Shown: in pieces, positions 4,001 through 63,322 of the stretch | Numbering within the stretch: position 1 is the first letter of the stretch | Layout: the number at the start of each line of letters is the position of its first letter | Assembly: GCF_009834565.1 (NCBI RefSeq) | Contig: NZ_CP019428.1 | Coordinates: forward strand, 744,001 to 808,000 | From: Pseudomonas sp. R76 | GTDB taxonomy: Bacteria > Pseudomonadota > Gammaproteobacteria > Pseudomonadales > Pseudomonadaceae | Length of the DNA: 64,000 bases | Direction of reading: 5' to 3' | The notes under the pieces: model-generated | What the model was told of the DNA's origin: nothing | The model's input: only the letters and a program-made list of their open reading frames with translations | The model's database searches: none | Translations under genes and position numbers: made by a program

Positions 4001-5638
4001 CCGAGCGCGGTATTGTCGAGCCTGTTGCACCGCCAGGACCCAATCAAACTGGAGTATGTGTTCGGCGCCACGGGTTCGATCCTCAGCTACCAACTGTCGG
4101 ACTCTGCCGAGGAAGTGCTGCTCAAGCAGCGCCTGACGCCACTGAGCCCGGTCAAGCTGGACTTCAGCGACAACCCTGTCGAAGAGCAGCTGCGCAGCGG
4201 GGCGCTCTCGCCACAGGCGTTCATCAATGAGACGGCGAAGGCCGGTGAACTGCGTGTGGTGAAGGGCGACAGCGTATGGGGCGAACCCAGGAAGATAACT
4301 CCGGGTTTTGTGCCGTATCAAACGCGACCCCAGCCTGGGGATATTCGCCAGGTATTCGCCGACGCGCCTTGCGGCCCGATCTTCACCCAGGCGTATGACG
4401 CCGTTCGTTATGCCCAGCGCCAGTGCGCGCCGCAAACCGATGTGGCGTTCGGTTATGTACTCAAGTCAGTGAACAAGCCGCTGTACATGACGACGCTGGC
4501 GTTGGTCAGGGAAAACCTGGCCGACTTCAAGCAGGTTTTTCTCGACGGCCAGTTGCCCCAGGGGTATGTGCTCGATGGCCTGTATCTGTGTGCTTCGACG
4601 ACTGCCGTCGCCCCGGCCGATGATGAAATGGCATACAGTTTTTTCCCGCCTCACTACATCGCCAAGGCCCTGCAATTCACCCTGTATGCGCGCAACGGTG
4701 GTGTGCTGCCGCTGTATTTGTTGTGCGGCGACGGCGCGTTGCTCAAGTACGTGTTTCCCAAGACTTCGCCACTCTACCCATGGACGAGCGCGGACTACCG
4801 CCTGCAATTACTCGAAGGCTCGCTGAAGGTCCAAGACTATGTGCGCCGCCTCGCCGGGGTGGGTGAACTGGACATTCGCAGCACCAGTGAAGTTTGGGGC
4901 AGGAAAGAGCGGGTCACGGCCGATTGGGTGCCGAAAAGAACGCCCCACCCGTTTGCCGACGACCCGCATGTTCATTCCTACTGCGGGCCGGTGTTTTATT
5001 ACCCCGATGACGCAGCCCGCTATGCCCAACGGCTGGTGGCGCCCTACAAGACCAAGCAGTATGTGGGCGCGGTACTGGTTCCGGGGCAAACGCCGGGGTA
5101 TGTGGCGATCGAGCCGGTGGAAGATCAGGGCACCGGCGCTGCACGCAGCCTGGAACGGTTGTTCCGGGTTGATCATCCAGGCCTCGACGTGCCGCCGGGC
5201 AACGTGTTGAGCACCTATAAAATTGCCGCCGTGCAGGCGTTCTACAAGGCGATACAGTCGACGTCCAGCTATGCGCAGATTGATAAGGATCTGCTGGAAA
5301 ACTTCGTCTCCAAGGATGATCTGCGCGACTACCTGGCGCTGGTCAAAAGGAATGCGCCCGATGCCAAGAGTTGTTACCTGTCCTGCCGGGGTGGGGCGAT
5401 GCTCAAGTATGTGCCGGCGTTTAACGCAGCTGAAACGGAGCTGCTGGAGGCGGGGGGCGCGCCGGACCCGAGTGTGTTGGTCAGTCGATTGCGCAGCCAG
5501 GGCAGTTTGTCGGTGCAGGTCCCCGACGCCTTCTGGTCGCGTCCGGGCTTGCTGGCTGAAGAGTGGAGCGTCAGTGAGTTGCAGGCAGAACCGGAAGCCG
5601 ACGAGTTCTGGTACGCACGGGCAAAAGATGAACTATGA
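1064..5638 (+). CDS. Giant protein of seven JAB-like (DUF4329-type) repeats, function unknown
   Basis: The protein has about 1524 residues from ATG 1064. An ATG at 1004 is also open and has AAGGA nine bases upstream, but the 20 extra residues look unlike protein, so the start is uncertain. There is no signal peptide or membrane segment. Seven units of about 215 residues begin near 1115, 1746, 2398, 3053, 3698, 4372 and 4982. Each unit has an opening like LSPAF-ADDAARYA, a strand like YGGVILK, a phrase like GALLKYVP, and a closing phrase like YVRRVA-GELRVV-VWG. Units 1, 3 and 5 resemble each other, as do 2, 4, 6 and 7. Only unit 1 keeps a JAMM-like HSHP (codons 1346-1357); unit 3 has CSHT and the others have lost it. 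DUF4329 membership is from memory. A polymorphic-toxin or immunity link is possible but not shown. The stop codon lies two bases from that of the convergent permease gene. Confidence 0.75.
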   Translation: MDITQAHPSHDLAKLPALSPAFISADDAAHWAHEAIGTRRDVEYGGVILKRAHRYYATHPVPDQRNSFDHRILLALDSQGNFIAPADYSAEAFYHSHPADAAQIQRMFPYFTTDQVVVFNNFYSMPDQLFSFRNRAFAKTHYFSGPDNVLLKYVSSGSAAENTFAQQVRDGTLEAKSDFENPIWNLAQIGELWVLIANKVWGGVRGRVKTGWRINTPVTSSSTAQQPFFTSVFPTADTAVLGALSAAGSPTAGAIGFVLKHTREDAFVATLAVPTRQPLFSPNEVFPKRADGKLRLPSNFRLEAIYFNSWYEKNEVAARETWLASTFFTPAQVVAATRQARATLGIQDPARGLRLYMHASDGALLAFKVPEATATTELVRQKNEGELDDNGAQAAMVDGTLSPRDYVRRVIAQTDLSVVQAGGLWRTVGMLDNRSNLLMSFYKATLSRSFLSARDAAVYAHEQIGNWRARSYGGYILKDADGRFVITEPIASVANPFAFTLFFPFDNQGPLIPPEPYVLHGRYCSHTALSMADPARVAQRGWTRDEAQIIQQGFSDAEMYSIITAGRVAYLSGAQDCLLEYTPNHSSHEEVLLGNIGPEVGSSSLGKRLENGQVRPADWVRRVAEAGDFKIIQGNPLWGPRSVIYEDWTPSYNYTPRSGPPDYATYGAVFNSADAAARNLHGRVHGRNFAEQACFAFILKHKDQEQYIASEVVGVAGRQKLFNLNSLFERTADDSYRLPDGFVLYGLFRSQQWSPTGLNASIAWLTLFFVTPDVLYAALYAANRQGMNNLSIYFSTLDGALLRYVPAPMDVRSAGLADRSLIQAQEQLNSGQKTPAEFVREWAVKGGLHVVRTSQCWDKNGLVDNNWSNYATLSPRRLSPAFANLDDAARYAAAMISNGWQRGYGGVILRLPNGLFAATEPLALPMQGFALNWIYPDQAVAVGLYPGGSAMVARYRSLLDQEVPLLLSAEQKALYKTMLPSAVLSSLLHRQDPIKLEYVFGATGSILSYQLSDSAEEVLLKQRLTPLSPVKLDFSDNPVEEQLRSGALSPQAFINETAKAGELRVVKGDSVWGEPRKITPGFVPYQTRPQPGDIRQVFADAPCGPIFTQAYDAVRYAQRQCAPQTDVAFGYVLKSVNKPLYMTTLALVRENLADFKQVFLDGQLPQGYVLDGLYLCASTTAVAPADDEMAYSFFPPHYIAKALQFTLYARNGGVLPLYLLCGDGALLKYVFPKTSPLYPWTSADYRLQLLEGSLKVQDYVRRLAGVGELDIRSTSEVWGRKERVTADWVPKRTPHPFADDPHVHSYCGPVFYYPDDAARYAQRLVAPYKTKQYVGAVLVPGQTPGYVAIEPVEDQGTGAARSLERLFRVDHPGLDVPPGNVLSTYKIAAVQAFYKAIQSTSSYAQIDKDLLENFVSKDDLRDYLALVKRNAPDAKSCYLSCRGGAMLKYVPAFNAAETELLEAGGAPDPSVLVSRLRSQGSLSVQVPDAFWSRPGLLAEEWSVSELQAEPEADEFWYARAKDEL

Positions 5639-5640
5639 CC

Positions 5641-6651
5641 TCAGCGCTTGCGCATCAGGCCGATAAAAAACAACCCGCCAATCGCCGCCGTCGCCACGCC
5701 AATGGGCAGGTCTTCGGGGGCGATCAGGGTGCGTGCGGCGACGTCGACCCACACCAGGAACGCACTGCCCAGCAGCACGCACACGGGCAGTAACCGTCGA
5801 TGCTCGGCACCGACCAAACGCCGGGCAATGTGCGGCACCATCAACCCGACAAAACCGATGGAGCCGCTGATCGACACCAGCACGCCGGTCATCAGCGACG
5901 CCACCAGGAACACCTTGAGCCGCACGTTGCGCGCGTTCAGGCCCAGGGTCACGGCGGTCTGCTCGCCGGCCATCAACGCATTCAGCGGCCGCGCCATGCC
6001 CAGCAGCAACAGCAATCCCAGCAGCACGGTCGCGGCGGGGATCGCCAGCAGCTCCCAGCGGGCGAGGCCCAGGCCGCCGAGCATCCAGAACATCACCGCC
6101 GACGCGGCGCGGTGGTCGCCCATGAACAGCAGCAAATTGGCCACCGCCATCATCACGAACGACACCGCCACGCCGCACAGCAGCAGGCGATCACTTTCCA
6201 GGCGACCGTTGCGACTGGCCACGGCCAGCACCACCAGCATGCTCAGCAGCGCACCGATAAACGCAGCGATGGGCAGGGTCAGCAGGCCGATGATTTCACC
6301 CACATGCAGCACCACGATCACCGCGCCAAGCGTGGCGCCGGAGGTAACCCCGAGCAGGTGCGGGTCGGCCAGCGGGTTGCGCGTTACTGCCTGCAACACC
6401 GCGCCAATCAACGCCAGCCCGGCGCCCACCAGCGCGCCGAGCAACATGCGCGGCACGCGGATCAGCCACACGATATGTTCCTGGCCGGTGCTCCAGTTCA
6501 CCTCACCGATACCGAACGCCTTGTTCAGCAAAATCCGCCACACCACGTCCACCGGCACCCGCGCCGAGCCGAACCCCAGCGAGATCACGCAAGAGACCAG
6601 CAACAACGCGCCAAGCGCGACCAGCAACAAGGCGTAGCGCCGGGTAATCAT
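5641..6651 (-). CDS. FecCD/BtuC-family metallophore ABC transporter permease
   Basis: This 336-residue inner-membrane permease belongs to the iron-siderophore/cobalamin type. About ten hydrophobic segments start with LLLVALGALLLVSCVISLGFG. Family signatures are visible: RVPRMLLGALVGAGLALIGA and the ADPHLLGVTSGATLGA stretch near residues 85-105, and GFVGLMVPHIARRLVG near residue 270, the conserved segment that contacts the ATPase. Its ATG overlaps the stop of the upstream binding-protein gene by four bases, so it is the last gene of the receptor-ATPase-binding protein-permease operon. The substrate is not readable from sequence. By resemblance to PA2911-PA2914 and the Zur-like box ahead of the operon, a zinc-related chelate is the best guess. 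Confidence 0.9.
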   Translation of the reverse strand: MITRRYALLLVALGALLLVSCVISLGFGSARVPVDVVWRILLNKAFGIGEVNWSTGQEHIVWLIRVPRMLLGALVGAGLALIGAVLQAVTRNPLADPHLLGVTSGATLGAVIVVLHVGEIIGLLTLPIAAFIGALLSMLVVLAVASRNGRLESDRLLLCGVAVSFVMMAVANLLLFMGDHRAASAVMFWMLGGLGLARWELLAIPAATVLLGLLLLLGMARPLNALMAGEQTAVTLGLNARNVRLKVFLVASLMTGVLVSISGSIGFVGLMVPHIARRLVGAEHRRLLPVCVLLGSAFLVWVDVAARTLIAPEDLPIGVATAAIGGLFFIGLMRKR

Positions 6652-14867: not shown

Positions 14868-15350
14868 CTATTGCGCGTGTTTATGCTCGTGGCCGGCCAT
14901 TGGCGGCGTTTTCTGGACCGAGACTTCCACTTCAACCTTGCCGGCTTTTTCGAAAGTCAGGGTCAGCGGGAATTGCTTGCCATCGGCCAACAGGCTGCGG
15001 TCCTTGAGGCCCAGCAGCATCACGTGATAGGCCATCGGCGCGAAGGTCAAATCACCCTTGGCGGGCACGGCGACGGTGTCTACTTGCTGCATCTTCATCA
15101 AGTCGCCTTGCATCACATGCTCATGCAACTCGGCCTTGTCCGCCACCGGCGTCGCGACGCTGAGCAGGCGGTCCGGCGTTTCACCGGTGTTATGAATCAC
15201 AAAGTACGCCGCGACAGTCGGCGCATTCGGCGGCAACTCCTGGGACCAGGGATCGCTGACCAGCAGGTCGCCGGCCTTGTAGTCTTCGGCATTGGCAGCA
15301 CTGAACACCGGCAGCAGCAACGCAGCCAGAAGCAGGGAAGATTTGAGCAT
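14868..15350 (-). CDS. Periplasmic copper chaperone PCuAC
   Basis: A 160-residue periplasmic copper-binding protein of the PCu(A)C (DUF461) family, which in other bacteria delivers Cu(I), for example to cytochrome oxidase. The signal peptide MLKSSLLLAALLLPVFSAANA starts at ATG 15350 with GGAG eight bases upstream; the frame is open further upstream but that part is not needed. The mature domain shows the family copper ligands: the His/Met cluster HEHVMQGDLMKM, then, after a spacer, YHVML, equivalent to the HxM pair. The C-terminus ends in the His-rich GHEHKHAQ. It is flanked on both sides by DUF2946 genes in the copper unit. Confidence 0.92.
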   Translation of the reverse strand: MLKSSLLLAALLLPVFSAANAEDYKAGDLLVSDPWSQELPPNAPTVAAYFVIHNTGETPDRLLSVATPVADKAELHEHVMQGDLMKMQQVDTVAVPAKGDLTFAPMAYHVMLLGLKDRSLLADGKQFPLTLTFEKAGKVEVEVSVQKTPPMAGHEHKHAQ

Positions 15351-15396
15351 GGCAGTTCTCCAGAACGGTTCTAAACGCAGTTCACTTGCGAAGAAA

Positions 15397-15792
15397 TCAG
15401 ACCGTTGGAGAGGCGCGCGGGTTAAGGCTCGGCCATTGCTGGCGCGGCGTAGGGGCTTGCAACGAAGGCGGCGGCAGGCTCTGCACCGCCGCAAACCGCG
15501 TCACATACAACTGCGGCACATGCCCCGGCAACGCCACCAACGGCGGTGAGCCCGAGCAACACCAGCAATGCTGCATGGTGGAGTGATCGTCCTGTTGCGG
15601 CGCCGGAATCTCCAGCTTGCCCAGGGCAATCGTCTTCAGGCTGGCGCCATTGGACGAACAGAAACCGCCCCACAGCAATTGCTGAACAGGGTCTTGGGAC
15701 TGCTGCATCGCACTGGCCATCGGCATGGCAAAGGCGTTGAACAGCACTGCAAAGCAGGCGATCCACACAATTGCAAAGCGTTGACGGGCCAT
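15397..15792 (-). CDS. DUF2946 family protein with CWCC motif
   Basis: 131 residues from ATG 15792 (MARQRFAIVW). A hydrophobic N-terminal segment (WIACFAVLFNAFAMPMASA) looks like a signal peptide with a cleavage site after SASA-like residues. The central part holds MQHCWCCSGSPP, a CxCC cluster preceded by His and Met, which could hold a thiophilic metal. It is the first gene of the copper unit (DUF2946, PCuAC, DUF2946, oprC). It differs from the other DUF2946 in this unit by having Cys rather than Met/His-rich features. Function is unassigned. Confidence 0.8.
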   Translation of the reverse strand: MARQRFAIVWIACFAVLFNAFAMPMASAMQQSQDPVQQLLWGGFCSSNGASLKTIALGKLEIPAPQQDDHSTMQHCWCCSGSPPLVALPGHVPQLYVTRFAAVQSLPPPSLQAPTPRQQWPSLNPRASPTV

Positions 15793-15815
15793 GGCGGACA
15801 ATCCGTAGGGTTAAG

Positions 15816-15842
15816 CGATCAGGTGGGTATTTAGCCTGATCG
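15816..15842. promoter_or_regulatory. Inverted repeat in the leader of the copper gene unit
   Basis: Perfect arms CGATCAGG and CCTGATCG are separated by an 11-base AT-rich centre and lie 24-50 bases upstream of the first DUF2946 start codon. It could be an operator for a dimeric repressor or a leader hairpin. No regulator is identified and it does not match a Fur or Zur box. Confidence 0.45.
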
Positions 15843-15933
15843 TTGGGGATAAGTAAAAAGCGGCGGTGTGGTTTGGTGTCGCAGTAGTTGCCTTCATGAT
15901 AGTCGGGAACCACAGATTGCCAATCTTAACCCT

Positions 15934-16018
15934 GTGGGAGCTGGCTTGCCTGCGATGGCATCACCTTGGCCTGGCTGGAAGACCGAGTCGCCTGCATCGC
16001 AGGCAAGCCAGCTCCCAC
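15934..16018. repeat. REP doublet (TGGCTTGCCTGCGA type)
   Basis: Arms GTGGGAGCTGGCTTGCC...TGCGATG and CATCGCAGG...AAGCCAGCTCCCAC face each other around a centre of about 35 bases. It lies between the cobK 3' end and the copper unit promoter, both on the minus strand. Confidence 0.92.
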
Positions 16019-16071
16019 ACTTATTTGTGCCTGGCCAAAATTTTGCGCCCGCCACAATCCAAATGTGGTGT

Positions 16072-16791
16072 TTAGAGCGTGTTGACGGCCTGTAGCACCG
16101 CCGCCACGGTAGTGAATTCTCGGTCTACCTCAGCCAACACCGGCCGCTTCAAGACAAGCACCGGAATTCCCTGCTCCCGCGCCACTTCCAGCTTCGGCTC
16201 GGTGGCCGCACTGCCGCTGTTCTTGCTGATCAGCACATCAATCCCACGCCGCTCAAACAGCGCGCGCTCGTCCTCGATCAGAAACGGCCCACGGGCGCCA
16301 ATGACTTCACAGCGCGCATTTCCCGGGTACACGTCCAGCGCGCGGAGCGTCCAGAACTGATCGGCGGGGATTTCATCGAGGTGCTGCAATGGCTCACGCC
16401 CCAGTGTGAACAACGGGCGCTTGAAGGGTTTCAACGCTTCAATCAACTCGGCCCAATCACTGACCTCACGCCAGTCATCCCCGGCTTGCGGTTGCCACGC
16501 TGGTCGCCTCAAGGCCCAGCAAGGAATGTCGCACGACTGCGCAGCCAGGGCGGCATTCCGGCTGATCTGAGCCGCATAGGGATGTGTGGCGTCGAGGATC
16601 AAGCGGATATTTTCATCGCGAACAAACTGGGCGAGGCCTTCAGCCCCGCCATAACCACCCACACGCACTTGGCAGGTGAGGTCGGTAGGCACACGGCCCA
16701 CACCGGCCAAACTGTAGAGATGTTCCGGCCCCAGTGTGCGGGCGATGGCCAGCGCTTCCGTCACGCCGCCCAGCAGCAGGATGCGTTTCAT
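16072..16791 (-). CDS. cobK: Cobalt-precorrin-6A/precorrin-6A reductase CobK
   Basis: This 239-residue NAD(P)H-dependent reductase converts precorrin-6A to precorrin-6B (dihydro form) in corrin ring synthesis. The N-terminus [16 protein letters not shown] is the family nucleotide-binding loop (GGT/V-E). Also visible are [16 protein letters not shown] near residue 67, the best-conserved family motif, and [19 protein letters not shown] near residue 190. Its ATG overlaps the cobL stop (ATGA), so the two are translationally coupled. It is the last gene of the minus-strand cob operon. In P. aeruginosa I recall cbiD between cobL and cobK; it is missing here. Confidence 0.93.
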
Positions 16792-57614: not shown

Positions 57615-57624
57615 CCCCCTCAAT

Positions 57625-57747
57625 GATCGTTCCCACGCTCCGCGTGGGAACGCATCCGAGGACGCTCCGCGTCACATCTCGCAAGGCTTAAATGTCAGGA
57701 CGCGGAGCGTCCGGGGCGGCATTCCCACGCAGAGCGTGGGAACGATC
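57625..57747. repeat. GATCGTTCCCACGC hairpin repeat with attached half REP
   Basis: Begins GATCGTTCCCACGCTCCGCG and ends CGCAGAGCGTGGGAACGATC, with inner GGACGC/GCGTCC arms; same family as 28282-28384 but about 20 bases longer in the centre. It is directly followed by AGCTCCCACAGGGGAT, the outer end of a REP element. The 250 bases between the DUF4136 gene and the tadG remnant hold little else. Confidence 0.9.
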
Positions 57748-57864
57748 AGCTCCCACAGGGGATCTGCTGCAGCCTTTAGCCAGCGCACCTCTCAGGCCTT
57801 GTCTACACTCAACTACACCCCAGGAGAGTAAGCGCTCGGCGACTCGCCGGCACAGGAGTGCTCG

Positions 57865-59127
57865 ATGTCTCCCCGATTTCAGTGCAAGCAGCGCGGCGCC
57901 ATCGGCTTAATGGCCGTCGGCGTATTGGCGGTGGTATTGGCCTTTACCTTGCTGGTGGTCGACAGCGGCCGCCTGTACCTGGAGAAACGCAAGTTGCAGG
58001 GCGTGGCAGACACCGCGGCGCTGGAGGCCGTCAGCCGCAATGGCACCTGCCTGGCGGGCCTCAGTGCGGCGTCTTATGCCGGGCAAAGTGTGGCGCGCAA
58101 TCATTTCGTGGTGGGTAACGGCAACACGCTTGTCACCCAATGTGGCTCCGTCACCACCGGCGCTTCGGGCCAGCGCACGTTCAGCGCCAACCCGGCGCTG
58201 TCGTCGGCTATCCAAGTGGTTGCCAGCAAAACCGTAACGACCAGCGTGGCCGGCGGAATCTGGTCACTGTTTTCCGGCAACTCGGTCAGCCTCAATACGG
58301 TATTGAGCGCTACGGCGGTGGCGGCCAAGCCCACGCCAACCTTGGCCCAGCTGACCATCAACAGCACGTTGGCCAGTGTCGACACCACCAGCTCCAACCT
58401 GTTGAACCCGCTGTTCAGCGGCTTGCTCGGCGGCAACGTCAACCTGACACTCGCCGGCTGGAATGGCCTGCTCAACACCAATATCAGCCTGCTCAGTTAC
58501 CTCGACCAGTTGGCGATCAACCTGGGCGTGTCCGCCGGCAACTACACCCAACTGCTCAACACCAATGTCACTGCCTCGCAGTTGATCCAGGCGGCGATCA
58601 CGGTGCTGACCGCCAACGGTGCGACGGCAGATGTCTTGACCGCCCTGGGCAGCCTGAAAATCGCCGCAATCAACCAGGCGCCACTGACCCTCGGGAAGAT
58701 TCTGCAGCTGCAGACGGGCACCACATCTGCGGCGCTGAATGCCAACTTGCAGGTGTTCCAACTGATTCAGGGCGTGGTGCAACTGTCCAACAGCCAGAGC
58801 GCGGCCGCCGCAACCTTGCCGGTCAGCTTGCTGGGGCTGGCGAATATCACCACCCAAGTGAAAGTGATTCAACCGCCGCAGTTGTCGGCCATCGGCGATC
58901 CGGCGCTTGCCGTCGCCAACCCCACAGGCCCGAATGCGATTTACGTGCGTACCGCCCAGGTTCGCACCCAGGTGACGGTCAGCTTGCCAGTGCTGAGCAG
59001 TCTGTCGGGGCTCACCACGGCGGTGAATAACCTGGTGGGGCCGCTGACGCCGGTGATCAACAGCCTGTTGAGCCTGAACCTGGTGAGCACCATCAACTCG
59101 GCACTGTGCTTGCTGGGGGCCGGCTGC
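57865..59127 (+). pseudogene. tadG: tadG, 3'-truncated and fused to antisense pprA
   Basis: TadG is a minor, membrane-anchored component of the Tad/Flp pilus machine. ATG 57865 has AGGAG six bases upstream. The N-terminal TadG/TadE-like segment is intact: RGAIGLMAVGVLAVVLAFTLLV then DSGRLYLEKRKLQGVADTAALE. Residues 100-421 are Ser/Thr/Asn/Leu-rich, as usual. After residue 421 (LCLLGAGC, codon 59125-59127) the reading becomes an antisense copy of pprA. The frame stays open to 60417 (850 codons), but the last 430 codons look like shadow translation, rich in His, Gln and Arg. The normal C-terminus is therefore missing. In P. aeruginosa tadG lies between pprB and the DUF3613 gene; here it is on the other side of pprA. 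Confidence 0.75.
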
Positions 59128-60309
59128 CAGCACTTGGCCCTGCACGCGATACCAGGTCGGCGGCTGGTCGCTGTTGCCACGGTGGAGGCGCACGCTGGCG
59201 AGCAAGGGCTTGCCAAGGGTTTTCAGGTCACGCAGGCGGCTGTGCAGTTCCTGGCGGTCGGCGGGGTGGATGAGTTCCAGCCAGGCGTCCAGGGGCTGGC
59301 GGGTCGGGGCTTGTTCCGGGCCGAGGTTGCGCATCAATTGGGGCGCGAGTTGGATCTCGCCGCTGGCCGGCAACAACTCGAACCAGCCAGTGCCCAGCAA
59401 GCCTTGCAGGGCTTCCAGGCGCTCCAATTGTTGATGATGGCGTTGTTCGCGCAGGCGGCTGAGCAGTGGCACAGCGAGGGCGGCGGCGAGGTTCAGCCAG
59501 TCGCGGTCGCGCATCTGCGGCTGGCCGCTGTAGGCCCCGCACAGCAGCCACGCGGCCACGCCTTGGCCATCGCGATACGGCACCAGAAAGCCATCGGCAT
59601 TGCCGAACACGCTGTGCAAGCGCGGGTGCTCGCCGCGCCCATAAGGCGCCTGCAAGCTCAGCGGCGTGGTGCCGTTGAGGCTGTCCAGGCACGTACCGAG
59701 GCGCTGCCCGTTGTGCCAGAACATCGGCGCATCATGGTTGGCGTACTGGCTGTAGATGATCCAGCCCTGGTCTTCCTGATCGAGCAACGCGAGGGCCACA
59801 CACGGGATGCGCCAGCGCTGTGCCACGCTGGCCAGTTGTTCGTTGAACACCTCAGGCAATCGGCTGAGGCTGCACACGCGCAGGTGCTCACTCACCAGGC
59901 TGGTCAGTTGCTGATTCTGTTCACGCTGCTCGGCCAGGTGGCGGCCATTGAGCAAGTCGCCGATATCCATGGCATGCAGCAACCAGCCGCTGTCGTGGGC
60001 TTCAATCGTGCCGCGGGTCTGCAGGATTTGCCCGGCGACGCCCTGGAAATCCAGGTCGAGGCTGTGGCGCTGCCAATCGGCGGGCACGCCTTCAACCGTC
60101 AGCGCACTATGGGGGCACAGCAGGTCTTGCAGGTACGGCGAGTCGGCGTACTGCGCCAACTGCTGGCGCAGCGTGCCGCTGATGTCGAGCACACGGCCTT
60201 GCGCGTCCAAATGCACCTGCAACCCGGCAGACGCCGGTGCCGGTGTGTCGACGGCCAGCGCGCTGCTGCGGCCGAGCAGGCGCCCGAAAAGTTTGTCGCC
60301 CGAGGTCAA
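59128..60309 (-). pseudogene. pprA: pprA sensor kinase, 3'-truncated: sensor half only
   Basis: The first 394 residues of a PprA-like sensor kinase. ATG 60309 overlaps the stop of the tadF-like gene (ATGA). A GAF-like domain spans about residues 145-290 (IPCVALALLDQEDQGWIIYS; GFLVPYRDGQGVAAWLLCGA) and a PAS domain about residues 300-394 (TGWFELLPASGEIQLAPQLM; HPADRQELHSRL; WYRVQGQVL). The histidine-kinase and ATPase domains are absent. Beyond the junction the frame stays open to 58264, antisense to tadG. Without the kinase core this product could not phosphorylate PprB. Identity rests on the neighbours (tadF-like, fppA, pprB). Confidence 0.75.
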
Positions 60310-60743
60310 AACTGCAGGCTCGAGGTGGCCTGCAGCGTCGCCGGCAACTGCGGCACGGTGCCGATGCCGGGCAGGACAATAAAGGGCATCACCGCCTGCA
60401 GGTTGGCCGTGGGGTAGTTGATTTGCACAGACAGCAAGCCGCCGACGAAGGTGGTGGTGACTTGGTTGGCGTTAAATTTGTACGTGGAGGGAATCCACAC
60501 CAAGCGGTTGATGACGGCGGCTTTGGCAGTGCTTTGCACGGCGGCCTGATAGCCGGTCATGGTGGGGTCCAGCGCCACGCTCAGGCGCACGGCTTCGGCG
60601 GTGGCCTGGTTGAACGACTGCAACAGCAGCAGCGGCAGGCTATAGCTGACCATGCCGTAGAACACGGCGAAAAAAATCACGAACACAGCAATGAACTCGA
60701 TTGCTGCCGCGCCTTTTTGCTTCTTCGGGAGGCTTGTTCTCAT
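60306..60743 (-). CDS. tadF: TadE/TadF-like pseudopilin
   Basis: 145 residues from ATG 60743 (a GTG one codon earlier is possible). A short basic leader (RTSLPKKQKG) is followed by AAAIEFIAVFVIFFAVFYGM, the TadE-like prepilin helix with the conserved Glu; cleavage after Gly by the FppA peptidase is expected. The rest is a small periplasmic domain. It corresponds by position to PA4294 beside pprA. It is upstream of the pprA remnant with overlapping stop and start, and divergent from fppA. Confidence 0.82.
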   Translation of the reverse strand: MRTSLPKKQKGAAAIEFIAVFVIFFAVFYGMVSYSLPLLLLQSFNQATAEAVRLSVALDPTMTGYQAAVQSTAKAAVINRLVWIPSTYKFNANQVTTTFVGGLLSVQINYPTANLQAVMPFIVLPGIGTVPQLPATLQATSSLQF

Positions 60744-60815
60744 CACCGCGTCTACCCTGACGGCTACTACTTGATATCAGCATAGAATCAATCGGCAAAA
60801 AGGGATGTTTTTTAC

Positions 60816-61289
60816 GTGATCCATGGCGCAGTGGTGGTGGTGTGGTTGGTGCTGTGTGCGGTGCAGGATATTCGGCAGCGATTGCTCGCCAATCGCCTGA
60901 CGCTGGGCGCTGCGCTGTTGGCGTTGATCTATGCGCTGTGGACGGGCAGCACCTGGCTGGGTGCGCCAGCCGGGCAAGGTTTTCTGGCGTTTCTTCTGGC
61001 GCTGCTGCTGACCTTGCCGGGTTACGCCCTCGGCCGCCTGGGCGCGGGCGATGTGAAGCTGCTCGCGGCATTGGCGCTGGCGTCGGATGCCGAGTACCTG
61101 CTGTGGTCGTTTGTAGGGGCTACGGTGGCCAATGGGCTGTGGATTTTATGCGCGCCAAAACTAATCCCGCTTATGAGTCATGGGCTTAAGAAGGGCATGG
61201 GTTATCTGGTGGCGGAGCCGTCAAAAAAACTGCCATTTGCGCCGTTTCTGCTGGTGGGTTTTGCCGCTGCCTGGTTTTGGATCCATTAG
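60816..61289 (+). CDS. fppA: Flp prepilin peptidase FppA (TadV/CpaA type)
   Basis: A 157-residue type IV aspartyl prepilin peptidase of the small, single-domain A24A class that processes the Flp pilin and TadE/F pseudopilins. Both catalytic aspartates are present: AVQDIRQ near residue 18 and LGAGDVKLLAALAL (GxGD motif) near residue 79. Five to six membrane helices. The start is GTG 60816 (MIHGAVVVVWLVL) with AGGGA upstream. It is followed by pprB on the same strand after a 126-base gap. Confidence 0.93.
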   Translation: MIHGAVVVVWLVLCAVQDIRQRLLANRLTLGAALLALIYALWTGSTWLGAPAGQGFLAFLLALLLTLPGYALGRLGAGDVKLLAALALASDAEYLLWSFVGATVANGLWILCAPKLIPLMSHGLKKGMGYLVAEPSKKLPFAPFLLVGFAAAWFWIH

Positions 61290-61415: not shown

Positions 61416-62198
61416 GTGAACAAGCTTACCTCTGCGGTAAAAGTGCTCGTTGTCGATGATCAACCGCTGATCGTGGAAGAGCTCTGTGAATTTCTTGAAA
61501 GCAGCGGTTTCCGCTGTGTCCCGTGTGAATCCAGCCAACAGGCCTTGAAGCGTTTCAGCGAAGACGCCGAGATCGGCCTGGTGCTCTGCGACCTGCACAT
61601 GCCGGACATGGACGGCATCGAGCTGGTCCAGGCCCTGCAAAAGGTCGCCGGTAAACAGCGTGCCTTCGAGGCGATCATGTTGACCGGCCGCGCCGACAAG
61701 CAGGATGTGATCAAAGCCCTGCGTGCGGGGATCGCGGACTATTACCAGAAACCCATCAACCTCGATGAATTGCTCGAAGGCTTGCAGCGCCAGGAAGCGG
61801 CGTTGCAAGAGCGCAAGAAGGACCTGCAACTGGGCAACTTGAACCAGAAGCTGCAGTTCCTTTCCGAGTCGATCAACGACCTGTACCAGGACCTCGACAA
61901 AGTGCGCAGCAGCCGGCCTGGGATGGACGGTGAAGAACTCTCGGCCGAGGACGCGGGGGCGGTGGAGATTCCGGCGATCTTCAACCAGTTGTCGCCGCGC
62001 CAATTGGACGTCGCACGGCTGGTGGGGAAAGGGCAGACCAACTATCAGATTGCCTGTGAATTGGGCATTACTGAAAACACCGTGAAGTTGTATGTGTCCC
62101 AGGTGCTGCGCTTGACGCACATGCATAACCGCACGCAACTGGCGTTGGCGTTGTCGCCGAATAATTCTGCGTTGCGTCAGCGGGTAACTGCACACTGA
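61416..62198 (+). CDS. pprB: LuxR-type response regulator PprB
   Basis: A 260-residue two-component regulator that in P. aeruginosa turns on the Tad pilus, CupE and BapA genes. Receiver domain: VLVVDDQPLIVEELCEF, phospho-acceptor Asp in LVLCDLHMPDMDG, MLTGRADKQD and YQKPIN, all residues intact. A coiled-coil-like linker (residues 125-170) leads to the C-terminal LuxR helix-turn-helix: LSPRQLDVARLVGKGQTNYQIA and ITENTVKLYVSQVL. The start is GTG 61416 with GGAG upstream. Its partner kinase gene pprA is truncated in this window. Confidence 0.92.
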   Translation: MNKLTSAVKVLVVDDQPLIVEELCEFLESSGFRCVPCESSQQALKRFSEDAEIGLVLCDLHMPDMDGIELVQALQKVAGKQRAFEAIMLTGRADKQDVIKALRAGIADYYQKPINLDELLEGLQRQEAALQERKKDLQLGNLNQKLQFLSESINDLYQDLDKVRSSRPGMDGEELSAEDAGAVEIPAIFNQLSPRQLDVARLVGKGQTNYQIACELGITENTVKLYVSQVLRLTHMHNRTQLALALSPNNSALRQRVTAH

Positions 62199-62211
62199 TT
62201 TTGCAACAAAT

Positions 62212-62298
62212 GTGGGAGCGGGCTTGCCCGCGATAGCGGTAGATCAGTCACAGATACAGTGGCTGACACTCCGTCATCGCGGGCAAGCCCGCTCCCAC
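62212..62298. repeat. REP doublet (CGGGCTTGCCCGCGA type)
   Basis: Arms GTGGGAGCGGGCTTGCCCGCGA and its complement face each other around ATCAGTCACAGATACAGTGG-like centre sequence. It lies between the convergent pprB and DUF3613 genes, the place where tadG is found in P. aeruginosa. Confidence 0.94.
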
Positions 62299-62327
62299 AT
62301 TTAGAGAGTGGCCTGGCAGAAATTTAC

Positions 62328-62600
62328 TCAATTACTCCCTTCGGTTTTCCCGCCCACCTTCTGCTCGAAATACTCCGGAATCGGATACTTGTAGCTGTCC
62401 AAAAACCGCTGGTTGGCTTTGTCGCGTTCGGCCGCCGAGGCTTTCTGTGGCTTCTGCGATGCGGCGCTGCCCGTGGACTGCAACGTCAACCATTGCTCGG
62501 TGAGCGCCTGCTGCGGTGACGACGGGCCGGGTTCTATGGCCATGACGCTCATGGGCAACGCGAGCACGGCCAGGCTGGCGAGATAAGGCATGTTCATCAT
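62328..62600 (-). CDS. DUF3613 protein of the Tad locus
   Basis: 90 residues from ATG 62600, which overlaps the tadD stop (TGATG); an ATG one codon later is also possible. A signal peptide (MNMPYLASLAVLALPMSVMA) is followed by a short polar domain: SPQQALTEQWLTLQSTGSAA and DKANQRFLDSYKYPIPEYFE, the DUF3613 pattern as I remember it. Small periplasmic protein of unknown function found in Pseudomonas Tad loci. It is the last gene of the minus-strand tad operon here. Confidence 0.85.
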   Translation of the reverse strand: MMNMPYLASLAVLALPMSVMAIEPGPSSPQQALTEQWLTLQSTGSAASQKPQKASAAERDKANQRFLDSYKYPIPEYFEQKVGGKTEGSN

Positions 62601-63322
62601 CAATTCCTCGGGTTGCTTGCGGCGCCACTGACGGCGGCGACTTGATCCTTGGCCTTGGCCACAGGTGCGCTTGAGCCCTTGAGTTTCTCGGCGCGGGCCT
62701 GGGCTTCAGTGACTTGTTCGGGGCTCAAGCTCATCTGGCTGACCAGTTGCGCCGCCTGTTTCCAGTTGTCCTGATAGATCAGCAGGGTCACCAGGTTGAC
62801 CGCGGCCAATGGGTCGCTCTGCTTGAGTTCCATGGCGGTCATGAATTCAAAGCGCGCGTCTTCCAGGCGCAGTTGGTTGAGGTAGACCACGCCCAGGTCA
62901 TTGCGGATTTTCTCGTCGGTGGGCGCCAGCCGGGCCGCGCGTTGCAAGTGGGCCATGGCTTGCCCGTTATCGCCCTTGGCCGAGGCGATTTGCCCCAGGC
63001 CGTGTTCGCCTTCGGCGGCCATGCAGGTGCCGATCAGGCTGCGGTACAACGGCTCGGCTTCGCTGCGCCCGAGCAGGCGATAAGCCTTGGCCTGGCGCAG
63101 GCGTACCTGGGGCAGATTCGCCGGCAGGCTTTGCAAGTTGGCGAGGCTGGCGTGCAGCTTGCCGTCGCCGGCCATTTCATCGGCCAGGTTCAACGACAGT
63201 TCCTGTTCGGAGCTGGGCTTGGGGCAACTGCCGGTGGCCAACAACGTGTCCCACGGGGCTTGGCCGTTGGTGGCACAACCGCCCAGCAGCAACAGGCTAC
63301 AACCGGCTATCAAGGCTCTCAT
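62600..63322 (-). CDS. tadD: Tad pilus assembly lipoprotein TadD (TPR)
   Basis: 240 residues. The lipobox LLGGCAT (Cys near residue 16) is followed by tetratricopeptide-like repeats between residues 70 and 190 (AEGEHGLGQIASAKGDNGQA; AARLAPTDEKIRNDLGVVYL; DARFEFMTAMELKQSDPLAA). TadD is a periplasmic-side lipoprotein needed for Flp pilus assembly. It lies ten bases after tadC and overlaps the DUF3613 gene. Confidence 0.9.
   Translation of the reverse strand: MRALIAGCSLLLLGGCATNGQAPWDTLLATGSCPKPSSEQELSLNLADEMAGDGKLHASLANLQSLPANLPQVRLRQAKAYRLLGRSEAEPLYRSLIGTCMAAEGEHGLGQIASAKGDNGQAMAHLQRAARLAPTDEKIRNDLGVVYLNQLRLEDARFEFMTAMELKQSDPLAAVNLVTLLIYQDNWKQAAQLVSQMSLSPEQVTEAQARAEKLKGSSAPVAKAKDQVAAVSGAASNPRN

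Follow-up and report, generated by a model that had tools for sequence, protein, structure and literature searches.

A probable recent deletion across the convergent 3' ends of tadG and pprA in the flp/tad locus of Pseudomonas sp. R76

The flp/tad locus and its two truncated genes

The window analysed here is a stretch of 64,000 nucleotides from Pseudomonas sp. R76 (positions 744001-808000 of contig 1, which is 6.82 Mb long), and it carries a flp/tad locus in which tadG and pprA meet within an 11-bp sequence (Table 1). At this junction, codon 421 of tadG passes into the antisense of pprA on the plus strand, and codon 394 of pprA passes into the antisense of tadG on the minus strand. The longer of the two resulting frames consists of 421 TadG codons, 394 codons antisense to pprA and 35 codons antisense to tadF, and the shorter of 394 PprA codons and 287 codons antisense to tadG. 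The first-pass annotation had described a TadG sequence that turns into antisense pprA after 59127 and a PprA start that turns into antisense tadG after 59128; the ORF list and the relatives confirm both in the assembly, and the two frames exist as described, open to 60417 and 58264, respectively.

Table 1. Features of the tadG-pprA junction and neighbouring genes (positions in the window)
Feature	Position	Strand	Remarks
tadG remnant, codons 1-421 of ~658	57865..59127	+	98, 97 and 97% identity to P0001-P0003 (658 aa each)
Chimeric open frame, 850 aa	57865..60417	+	TadG 1-421, antisense pprA and short antisense tadF tail; read as a by-product
Chimeric open frame, 681 aa	58264..60309	-	PprA 1-394 and antisense tadG; read as a by-product
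Probable deletion junction within 11-bp sequence	59127..59137	.	In relatives, the extra stretch lies between two diverged copies (junction alignments)
pprA remnant, codons 1-394 of ~910	59128..60309	-	97-98% identity to P0121 (910-aa sensor kinase)
tadF-like gene (TadE family)	60306..60746	-	Pfam TadE; open; 145-146 of 146 aa aligned to L022 and L023
fppA-like prepilin peptidase	60816..61289	+	Pfam Peptidase_A24; 157 of 157 aa aligned; open
pprB-like response regulator	61416..62198	+	Pfam Response_reg and GerE; 95% identity to L022 over 260 of 260 aa; open
tadD-like TPR gene	62600..63322	-	Open

The TadG remnant keeps the Tad domain (PF13400) at residues 11-57 in a Pfam search, and about 237 residues (~422-658) are lost. 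The copy in the Tad locus lacks the C-terminal region of a full-length TadG; it matches residues 1-434 of 658, the last of which lie past the junction. The loss from PprA amounts to about 516 residues and takes in every domain that Pfam finds in the intact protein P0121, namely PAS_3 (450-532), PAS_4 (559-668), HisKA (682-748) and HATPase_c (795-907). Searching the 681-residue frame against Pfam returned no match at E <= 0.001, and the HisKA and HATPase_c domains of a functional PprA histidine kinase are absent from it. The proposal that PprA had lost its kinase and ATPase domains thus holds. The label "GAF-PAS" for the retained part was not confirmed, as this frame has no Pfam match and the PAS region (449-668) belongs to the lost part. 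The missing kinase half, for which the first-pass annotation had proposed looking elsewhere in the genome, was searched for and not found: there is no close copy of PprA in the rest of the strain's own genome, where the other 47 PprA matches are of kinase type at 44% identity or less, and a DNA search for the missing stretch, second contig included, gave short pieces only.

The names used for the genes of the locus are presumptive, being assigned by family and order. The tadF-like gene overlaps the start of pprA by 4 bp, and the pprB-like response regulator is now without an intact PprA. Beyond the tadD-like gene follow tadC, tadB, tadA, tadZ, rcpA, rcpC and flp, all open, with tadC running past the end of the window. 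All 11 genes checked in the remaining PprAB-type machinery (fppA, pprB, the tadF-like and tadD-like genes, tadC to rcpC, and flp) are open. Ten of these align almost from end to end with relative L022; the exception is flp, inside which L022 itself ends and which aligns to L023 over positions 3-89 of 91. In L023 (G196), the tadZ homologue at 14884-16134 is interrupted by a stop where it aligns with the strain's own TadZ. Repeated sequences occur at 57624-57748, where the repeat is inverted relative to itself, and at 62203-62300, which recurs in several copies in the own-genome region L029; both look to us like REP-type intergenic repeats. By family and order, the gene set resembles the type A PprAB flp/tad locus as described in an excerpt of PMC7716237, and the flp/tad genes of P. 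aeruginosa (PA4293, PA4294 and PA4296-PA4303) serve for comparison (PMC3510237, in part). The present locus differs in that only the 5' parts of tadG and pprA are left, meeting at their tails.

A second, intact TadG is encoded elsewhere in the genome. This orphan paralogue of 630 residues lies at about 3.03 Mb (C1 ~3028401-3030293; L029 8401-10293, minus strand), 2.2 Mb from the Tad locus, between genes of other families with APH phosphotransferase and 2-hydroxyacid dehydrogenase domains, and is 47% identical to TadG along its length. Three of 99 genus genomes sampled, the strain's own included, have it at 72-100% identity (74% in G095, 72% in G048), and a second tadG-like DNA match was also seen in G185 contig 42.

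Comparison with intact relatives

The closest matches among the proteins and loci listed are from Pseudomonas, including P. fluorescens and P. antarctica. Alignment of the flanks to relatives with intact tadG and pprA, as the first-pass annotation had proposed, placed an additional stretch at the junction in all 11 relatives compared, with the flanks in the same order on both sides. This stretch measures 2,261 bp in three and 2,267 bp in three of six genus genomes, at least two of which (G157 and G121) recur as L054 and L057 in the set of 80 loci considered below; in five named relatives it measures 2,261 bp (four) or 2,267 bp (one). For the six genomes, the alignment on the tadG side ends at window position 59137 in four and at 59143 or 59156 in the others; on the pprA side it starts at 59119-59129. 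The arrangement before the loss is exemplified by L022 (G175), in which tadG, at 4469..6445, encodes 658 residues, while on the opposite strand the frame of pprA has its end at 6442. The arithmetic agrees: 237 TadG codons (711 bp) and 516 PprA codons (1,548 bp), plus 6 stop bases and minus a 4-bp overlap, add up to 2,261 bp.

Because the relatives carry 2,261-2,267 bp more between flanks that are in order, one deletion explains the locus, and the alignments bear out the earlier suggestion that a single event removed the C-terminal part of TadG together with PprA's kinase and ATPase domains. The further suggestion that material between the two genes was lost as well is contradicted. Among the 80 named loci examined with the 910-residue PprA as query (the best 80 of 213 related loci), tadG adjoins pprA in 78, and in 75 of these the genes overlap tail to tail, by 4 bp (39 loci), 16 bp (16), 31 bp (19) or 93 bp (1), leaving no intervening sequence. 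L065 and L085, the loci that yielded no tadG, come from stretches that end 149 and 16 bp past pprA. The remaining three of the 78, from P. lactis, P. paralactis and P. paracarnis (L069, L073 and L125), show 260-550 bp between the two gene ends (gaps of 260, 462 and 550 bp). Given the overlap in 75 of 78 relatives, the loss of a third gene alongside tadG and pprA was rejected; an inversion, translocation or insertion was rejected on account of flanks that are in order with the relatives and of a missing part found nowhere else in the genome.

Both flanks of the extra stretch match the junction sequence at 59127-59137, and the two copies of this 11-bp repeat agree at 7-10 of 11 bases across the 11 relatives: 10 in L023, L024, L050 and L051, 9 in L056, 8 in L022, L027, L052 and L087, and 7 in L025 and L026. 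In a control for five of the 11 relatives, breakpoints were drawn at random 200,000 times within the same two genes. Agreement at 10 of 11 bases was reached by 31 (L050), 25 (L051) and 33 (L023) pairs, at 9 of 11 by 375 (L056) and at 8 of 11 by 2,505 (L022). A direct repeat is thus present at both breakpoints beyond chance, the relatives' copies standing for the strain's ancestral ones, and its excess over random pairs favours a deletion between short direct repeats. Since the match is only 7-8 of 11 in six of the 11 relatives, and 2,505 of 200,000 random pairs do as well in L022, the repeat counts as good but not overwhelming evidence, its strength depending on the relative taken as ancestor. 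RecA-independent deletions between short direct repeats are known from E. coli (PMC5426353, in part). As in such bacterial deletions, a repeat sits at the breakpoints, the DNA between is lost and one copy is kept; the present case differs in that two convergent genes are hit at once.

Several observations bear on the age of the event. With up to 3 mismatches allowed, the junction sequence was found in one of 398 genus genomes (one genome per species), that of the strain itself, and a search of genome_contigs, in which the own and near-identical records may be hidden, gave no match. Neither remnant contains an internal stop or frameshift. Against six relatives, dN/dS is 0.07-0.14 for the strain's tadG (0.10-0.19 among the relatives themselves) and 0.14-0.19 for its pprA (0.10-0.17 among the relatives); the pprA value is slightly high, that of tadG is not. 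Low values in the retained parts are expected for a recent deletion, since they mirror the time before it.

pprA was detected at E <= 1e-90 in 114 of 199 genus genomes, the strain's own copy being matched over residues 1-401. Three others of the 114 lack one long match: G034, in which the gene lies in two frames, G076, in which it meets a contig start, and G021 (residues 2-668). The deletion described here is absent from both G021 and G034. In G021, an assembly of 180 contigs, the PprA homologue at L042 819-3287 (contig 162) is without about 58 residues across HisKA (670-726 of P0121), the match resuming in the same frame at residue 727, and it is possibly another kinase-dead PprA candidate. 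In G034, a genome 95% complete, pprA is split between two frames and tadG changes frame near residue 513 (G034:C1:1701571-1706298, part of it in L035). The lesions of G034 may reflect either sequencing error or an independent loss, and the presence of two frame changes in neighbouring genes suggests the former. A literature search at the level of titles and abstract openings gave nothing relevant on P. fluorescens tad loci that had suffered losses or deletions.

Openness of the two antisense frames

Openness of an antisense frame in register with a gene requires only the absence of TTA, CTA and TCA codons. Long double frames are an ordinary by-product in GC-rich DNA. The first-pass annotation had named these three codons as the ones that stops would need, and the counts agree: they make up none of the 394 codons of the pprA remnant and two of the 421 of the tadG remnant (codons 15 and 134), codon 134 being where the minus frame ends at 58264. 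Among 18 ORFs chosen by eye from 35 of at least 350 residues in the window (putative genes, two of which overlap, with a wrong strand possible), the codon-aligned antisense-open run extends over at least 350 codons in 13 and at least 394 in eight, the longest being 1,026. Among relatives, the homologous 394 pprA codons are free of antisense stops in 6 of 78, and a tadG antisense-open run of at least 287 codons occurs in 9 of 78. The exact openness of both stretches is a minority state in the relatives, yet not a rare one.

The codon register shared by the two genes, to which the open frames had been attributed, holds now, after the deletion, but did not hold ancestrally: in L022 their phases differ (2 and 1), and the common register arose through the deletion, whose length is 2 mod 3, an outcome to be expected about one time in three. 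That both frames are open reflects some luck, and function is needless as an explanation. Truncated genes can read through into neighbouring antisense sequence, and in GC-rich DNA such frames stay open by chance; what differs here is that, owing to the convergent arrangement, each partner reads into the other. The idea that the locus yields two long chimeric proteins fares poorly, as openness is common here and no protein of chimeric make-up was present among the best 120 of 2,007 hits for the 850-residue frame or the best 120 of 419 for the 681-residue frame, where a self match, if recorded, would be expected to rank first. Overlapping or newly born genes were likewise rejected, as antisense runs of this length are common and the junction occurs in no other genome searched.

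Origin and likely consequences of the deletion

Taken together, the alignments make it very probable that one recent event, a deletion that took about 2.26 kb out of a PprAB-type flp/tad locus, caused the double loss of the 3' parts of tadG and pprA. The missing stretch reaches from about codon 422 of tadG to codon 395 of pprA. The two repeat copies would have mispaired, through slipped-strand pairing, single-strand annealing or end joining, presumably after the split from strains that are 97-98% identical in the retained parts of TadG and PprA.

It might instead be supposed that the chromosome is intact and that the 2.26 kb was lost in assembly, library preparation or subculture of the sequenced clone. 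The restriction of the junction to this one genome (the only one among 398, with none in genome_contigs) would suit such an artefact, as would the absence of either chimera from the listed protein hits; the latter, however, would be expected if the remnants are annotated as pseudogenes. The assembly comprises two contigs rated 100% complete and 0.05% contaminated, the missing DNA is on neither the second contig nor elsewhere, and a repeat of at most 11 bp should be too short to collapse usual assemblies, all of which makes an artefact unlikely, although an assembly error is the chief doubt that is left. Barely credible is the view that the deletion made functional chimeric proteins (850 or 681 residues) that the strain now uses. 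Both frames are open and selection on the retained parts is not clearly relaxed, with dN/dS near that of relatives, but antisense openness is common here, low dN/dS is expected anyway if the deletion is recent, and a junction seen in the own genome only, among those searched, gains no support from conservation.

Compatible with a single recent deletion is the proposal that selection acted against Flp pili or PprAB signalling, perhaps in laboratory culture or on a host, and so favoured the event. One event strikes both a structural gene and the sensor of its pathway and leaves 11 other genes open, other possible pprA lesions exist in G021 and G034 among the 114 genomes with the gene, and activation of PprAB in P. 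aeruginosa has been linked to drug susceptibility and decreased virulence (PMC3510237, in part). Nevertheless, G021 and G034 are the only such candidates, and either could stem from an error of sequencing or assembly; we consider a role for selection doubtful, if conceivable.

Following the deletion, PprA would be left without kinase activity, PprB would be a response regulator without its usual kinase, and TadG would be truncated with a meaningless tail, as a result of which the strain probably assembles Flp pili poorly or not at all. The orphan paralogue might soften the effect of the tadG truncation. In P. aeruginosa, PprAB activates the flp/tad, cupE and bapA genes (PMC3510237, in part). 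According to an excerpt of a further study in that species, flp, rcpC and cupE responded to carbon starvation in a pprA mutant as they did in the wild type, and pprB induction ran through RpoS (PMC6821963). Because PprB-dependent induction survived deletion of pprA there, PprB may still act in the present strain, and the loss of TadG may matter more than that of PprA. A more elaborate outcome, uncoupling in one step, would have PprB working through its expression level or other phosphodonors once PprA was gone and the paralogue replacing TadG, with pili under kinase-free control; this seems very improbable.

Annotations of this locus should not list either of the long antisense frames as a gene. 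In comparisons of Flp pili or PprB across Pseudomonas, the strain is best treated as one without PprA and without a full-length TadG encoded in the locus. More broadly, the junction offers a small, clear case in which antisense openness in a GC-rich genome makes a simple deletion resemble the birth of overlapping genes.
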